Assembly (NCBI GenBank): GCA_943841085.1
Contig: CALSWN010000001.1
Coordinates: 1-40,644, forward strand
DNA: 40,644 nucleotides
DNA from: an uncultured Candidatus Pelagibacter sp.
GTDB taxonomy: Bacteria; Pseudomonadota; Alphaproteobacteria; Pelagibacterales; Pelagibacteraceae
Reading direction: 5' to 3'
The notes under the pieces were generated by a model. The model did not search any database. It saw only the letters and a list, made by a program, of their open reading frames with translations, and was not told the DNA's origin. This document shows, one piece after another, positions 39,358 to 40,644 of the stretch. Positions within the stretch are counted from its first letter, which is position 1. Each line of letters starts with the position of its first letter. Position numbers and translations under genes: made by a program.

Positions 39358-40598
39358 TTATTTGCTTTTTGTTCAGTTAATATTTTAATAATTTGTTCTA
39401 TTGTTAAATTTTGAGTATCTTTACCTATTTCCTTGAATTCTATAGTGTCACCTTCTGATTTTTTCCCAATAATAATCTGATTAGGAACACCTATTAAATT
39501 AAATTTTTTTATTTTAGAAGATAGATTTTCATCTGTATCATCAATAATTGTATCTATATTGTTGTTTTCTAGGTGTTTTAAAATTTTTGATGCTTTTTCT
39601 AAAGTTGATGTATCGTTTTTATTAATCATCGGTATTATAGCTAACTCATAGGGTGCAATTGACAATGGCCACTTCATTATTTCTTTTTTATCATCATACT
39701 TTGCTTCTATTATAGCTCCGACCAATCTAGATACTCCAATTCCATAAGACCCCATTTTAACGTAATCCTTCTTACCATCTGGAAGATCAACTGCTGCATT
39801 TAATGCTTTTGAATATTTGTCACCAAAATAGAAGATGTGACCAACTTCAATTCCTTTAGTGATCAATCTATTTTCTTTATCTACTTCTTTTTCAAATTCT
39901 TCTTTATCAAATTTTTCATCTGTTACAGAATAAAATCTTTCATATTTTTTTCTTAGATTTTCTAAAGATTTTTTTTCAATAATTGAACCTTCGCTGTCAA
40001 GATCGAAAATTCTTTTATCAGTAAAAATTTTACTTTCACCTGTATCTGCTAAAATGATAAATTCATGAGAAAGATTACCACCAATTGGTCCAGTATCAGC
40101 GGCCATTGGAATAGCTGTAAGTTCTAATCTTTTAAAAGTTTTTAAATAAGATAAAAAAAATTTATTATAAGAAAAAACTGCTTCATCATCATTTAGATCA
40201 AAAGAGTATGCGTCCTTCATATAGAATTCTCTACATCTCATAATTCCAAATCTTGGTCTTACCTCATCTCTGAACTTCCATTGAATGTGATATAATAGTT
40301 GAGGTAAAGATTTATAGGATTTAATACTAGATCGAAATATATCAGTAACCAATTCTTCATTAGTTGGACCATAAAGCATTTCTCTATCTTGACGATCTTT
40401 AATACGAAGCATCTCATCTCCATAATCGTCATATCTACCACTTTCTTTCCAAATTTCACTTGATTGTATAGTAGGCATTAAAATTTCTTGTGCTCCAATT
40501 TTATTTTGTTCCTCTCTAACGATTTTTTCAATTTTTTTCATTACTTTAAACCCAAGGGGTAACCATGAATAAATACCTGCGGATGATTGTTTTATCAT
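39354..40598 (-). CDS. proS: Prolyl-tRNA synthetase, 5' part interrupted by an in-frame TGA
   Basis: The 414-aa frame from the ATG at 40598 encodes most of a class II prolyl-tRNA synthetase. Motif 2 [10 protein letters not shown], the MKDAYSF segment, the TGPIGG stretch and motif 3 [15 protein letters not shown] are intact, and the C-terminal anticodon-binding domain is complete. No editing insertion lies between motifs 2 and 3, as in the short alphaproteobacterial form. The family normally begins about 30 residues earlier. Upstream, the same frame reads [12 protein letters not shown], then TGA, then VG and this Met, where other ProRS proteins read SHQLMLRAGMI. The gene is thus disrupted at a conserved Arg, re-started at the internal ATG, or affected by a sequence error. 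It runs off the window. Confidence 0.88.
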   Translation of the reverse strand: [414 protein letters not shown]

Positions 40599-40644
40599 TC
40601 CAACTCATAGCATCAATTGGTGTGATTTAATTTTAGCTTCAGAT
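40599..40644 (-). other. proS: Upstream in-frame remnant of proS with a TGA codon
   Basis: The 15 codons before the ATG at 40598, in the same frame, read [18 protein letters not shown]. This is clearly homologous to the ProRS N-terminal region (SHQLMLRAGMI in E. coli). The stop is the TGA at 40605-40607, minus strand. The true start of the ancestral gene lies beyond the window edge. Confidence 0.85.

Follow-up and report, generated by a model that had tools for sequence, protein, structure and literature searches.

The in-frame TGA that interrupts proS, the gene for prolyl-tRNA synthetase (ProRS), near the end of the window is, with a probability that we put at about 0.95, a contig-end artefact of a strain-mixed short-read metagenome assembly, and the gene itself an ordinary proS split over two contigs. 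By the window we mean the whole stretch of DNA analysed, 40,644 nucleotides long, which is the entire contig C1; the 5' part of the gene lies on a second contig of the same genome, C10 (3,779 bases). Because C10 carries the normal Arg codon and completes the gene, the TGA can be read as an ordinary assembly artefact, and there is therefore no read-through, recoding or truncated ProRS to explain.

A sequence-only reading had placed the TGA in frame at a conserved Arg codon of proS and had recognised homology upstream of it, and both observations stood. The minus-strand codons from 40643 downward run TCT GAA GCT AAA ATT AAA TCA CAC CAA TTG ATG CTA TGA GTT GGA ATG ATA AAA, which puts the TGA at 40607-40605 and the first ATG after it at 40598-40596. 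Since the window ends at 40644, 37 bases past the first base of the TGA, the stop is confined to the last 38 bases of the contig. The upstream homology is real: Arg at this codon and the 30-residue N-terminus that precedes the internal Met are present in 80/80 SAR11 relatives, and the solved relative 2i4l, deposited as a proline-tRNA ligase, has Arg at the same position. The features concerned are as follows.

39354 to 40606, minus strand: artefact-free part of proS (prolyl-tRNA synthetase), a 414-codon frame that opens at Met40598 and closes with the stop at 39354-39356, together with 8 bases upstream of the Met
40481 to 40606, unstranded: stretch identical to C10:1-126; its length is k-1 when k = 127
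40605 to 40607, minus strand: TGA in the proS frame, where C10 has AGA (Arg); the 126-base run common to both contigs ends immediately before 40607
40607 to 40644, unstranded: divergent contig tail of 38 bases that departs from C10 at four sites, nonsense at 40607 and synonymous at 40610, 40629 and 40644

A search of the window's own genome with its last 2.6 kb found that the start of C10 matches the window end at 98%. In an ungapped placement, C10:1-164 lies on window 40481-40644; positions 1-126 are identical to window 40481-40606, and mismatches occur only at the four tail positions. At the site of the TGA, C10 reads AGA in a frame without a stop, and 30 codons before the internal Met it has an ATG, itself preceded by an in-frame TAA. 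Joining C1 and C10 gives an open proS of 444 codons, of which codons 31-444 (plus the short tail) lie on C1 and codons 1-69 on C10; the version with the C1 tail is broken at the TGA codon only. These observations support a sequence or assembly error, one of three explanations that had been offered for the stop.

The joined product leaves little that is unusual about the gene. Scored against the NCBIfam proline--tRNA ligase model for short-form bacterial ProRS (NF008979 / PRK12325; curated cut-off 550 bits), the 444-residue protein reaches 652 bits over profile positions 1-436 of 437, whereas the 414-codon form alone reaches 598 bits over positions 31-436. The joined protein thus scores above the cut-off with full profile coverage and keeps the conserved Arg28; this is an ordinary SAR11 short-form proS, from which the contig break is the sole difference. 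A second proS copy, suggested earlier as something to look for, was not found in the own-genome search, which returned the 39-residue C10 fragment as a 100% match; proS is present once, its two parts lying on C1 and C10. The same search gave a weak 27% match in a 638-codon frame on C52, which is probably threonyl-tRNA synthetase and was rejected as a second copy; similar matches occur in nearly all relatives.

Gene order across the two contigs reads through in the same way. The order nuoN-like, birA, coaX, RNase J, an 81-residue gene, proS, lolC and lolD spans C10 and then C1, and is conserved in three relatives, one of them on a single contig; all genes have one orientation and the homologues of the C10 genes stand directly before those of the window genes, although the 81-residue gene has no match in one of the three. 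Wherever the relatives' stretch covers it, dnaE is next in order. The names of these neighbours are our own presumptive assignments from the look of the proteins.

The form of the C1/C10 junction recurs elsewhere in the genome, which by its relatives belongs to SAR11 / Candidatus Pelagibacter and comprises 73 contigs and 915,505 bases with an estimated completeness of 79.7%. Comparing all of its contig ends, we found 26 end pairs: in 12 the overlap is exactly 127 bases long and 100% identical, and in 8, C1/C10 among them, an exact run of 126 bases (k-1) borders on mismatched sequence. The twelve 127-base overlaps point to a de Bruijn graph assembly, evidently one run at k = 127. The TGA thus lies in a tail of C1 that overlaps another contig of the same genome, and the length of the exact overlap is one set by k and common to other junctions. 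This is the arrangement of contig-end strain-variant stubs in de Bruijn graph assemblies, in which an overlap of k-1 or k with another contig is followed by a short divergent tail; what sets C1 apart is that its tail by chance introduces a stop into an essential gene.

From this overlap pattern we infer that an assembler working at k = 127 would have been unable to pass a site where two closely related haplotypes differ, breaking the contig at a branching path. The last 38 bases of C1 would then be a stub belonging to the alternative path, and this stub, carrying A against T in C10 at 40607, would turn AGA (Arg28) into TGA. Differences at the other imperfect junctions of the genome are mostly synonymous, as expected for strains of one population. 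At one of these, a 259-base overlap between the starts of C31 and C55, a TAA on one side stands against AAG in an open 683-codon frame on the other; the C1/C10 artefact is therefore not unique in this genome.

The tail differences were compared with the relatives, whose loci in named genomes belong overwhelmingly to Candidatus Pelagibacter / Pelagibacteraceae. Three of the four are synonymous (CTA/TTA for Leu, ATT/ATA for Ile and a third-position change in a Pro codon), and at these sites 26, 49 and 16 of the 80 relatives share the base of the tail. The stop-making base is different: in coding sense, base 40607 is A in 76 relatives, C in 4 and T in none, and the codon is AGA in 68, AGG in 8 and CGT in 4. 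Because three of the four differences are synonymous and are seen in relatives, the tail taken together resembles the haplotype of a natural strain, save for one base found in no relative. The same three differences look like real strain variation and so count against an account by plain noise; we consider it less likely that the tail is sequencing noise throughout. The stop-making base itself probably arose by error, in sequencing or in assembly, within a stretch of thin support, and is at most a rare allele. A degenerate pattern search over the genus recovered the TGA form of the motif in 1 of 399 genomes, the window's own, and in none of the 398 others; the Arg-codon form was recovered in 225/399, the own genome included, a lower bound given that the pattern is strict and many of the genomes are incomplete.

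These comparisons bear most directly on whether a minor strain truly has TGA at Arg28, its ProRS being started at Met31 or its lineage dying. The tail probably does come from a real strain, its synonymous differences matching variation among relatives, but the TGA occurs in no other genome of the genus and in none of the 80 relatives, all of which keep the 30-residue N-terminus, and ProRS is essential and here single copy. We regard such a strain as very improbable, and see only a slim chance that a rare SAR11 strain with a real TGA survives through a Met31-started ProRS or low-level read-through. A gene whose true start is Met40598, with the upstream homology a relic, is hardly credible: the 414-codon frame is still above the family cut-off, but the upstream part is intact on C10, with its ATG 30 codons earlier as in 80/80 relatives. 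The proposed re-start at the Met three codons after the stop is accordingly not needed, and where close relatives beginning at the internal Met without upstream homology had been named as the finding that would overturn the original reading, all 80 showed the opposite.

Read-through, or recoding of the TGA as an amino acid, would fit the homology that continues in frame upstream of the stop, and finds no other support: the organism's own C10 has AGA, and TGA stands at this codon in no relative. The genome encodes release factor RF2 (prfB, split over C66 and C62); among 515 open reading frames of at least 250 codons, listed mechanically so that a few may not be genes, 67 end in TGA; and ARAGORN reported 24 tRNAs in the genome, none with a UCA anticodon. 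On these three grounds, the organism uses TGA as a stop codon. Reassignment of TGA, such as in codes 4 and 25, does not match this combination, which agrees with the earlier judgement that a general code change was unlikely; read-through of the single TGA, the last of the explanations offered at the outset, is likewise unsupported, and we consider it extremely unlikely.

The case carries no more than a caution: where a stop in a strain-rich metagenome bin falls no farther than roughly k bases from the end of its contig, the bin's remaining contigs should be consulted before recoding or gene loss is invoked. For the window's proS, a single search of its own genome was enough to settle the case.

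Two further loci showed related irregularities. The prfB gene is divided between C66:10541-11341 and C62:3091-3531, whose imperfect 200-base overlap contains five synonymous differences; either contig annotated alone would give a truncated RF2. On contig G002:C18 of a relative, proS is matched twice with the same score, at 2191-3423 on the plus strand and 11518-12750 on the minus strand; the opposed orientation of the pair suggests a palindromic (mirror) assembly artefact.
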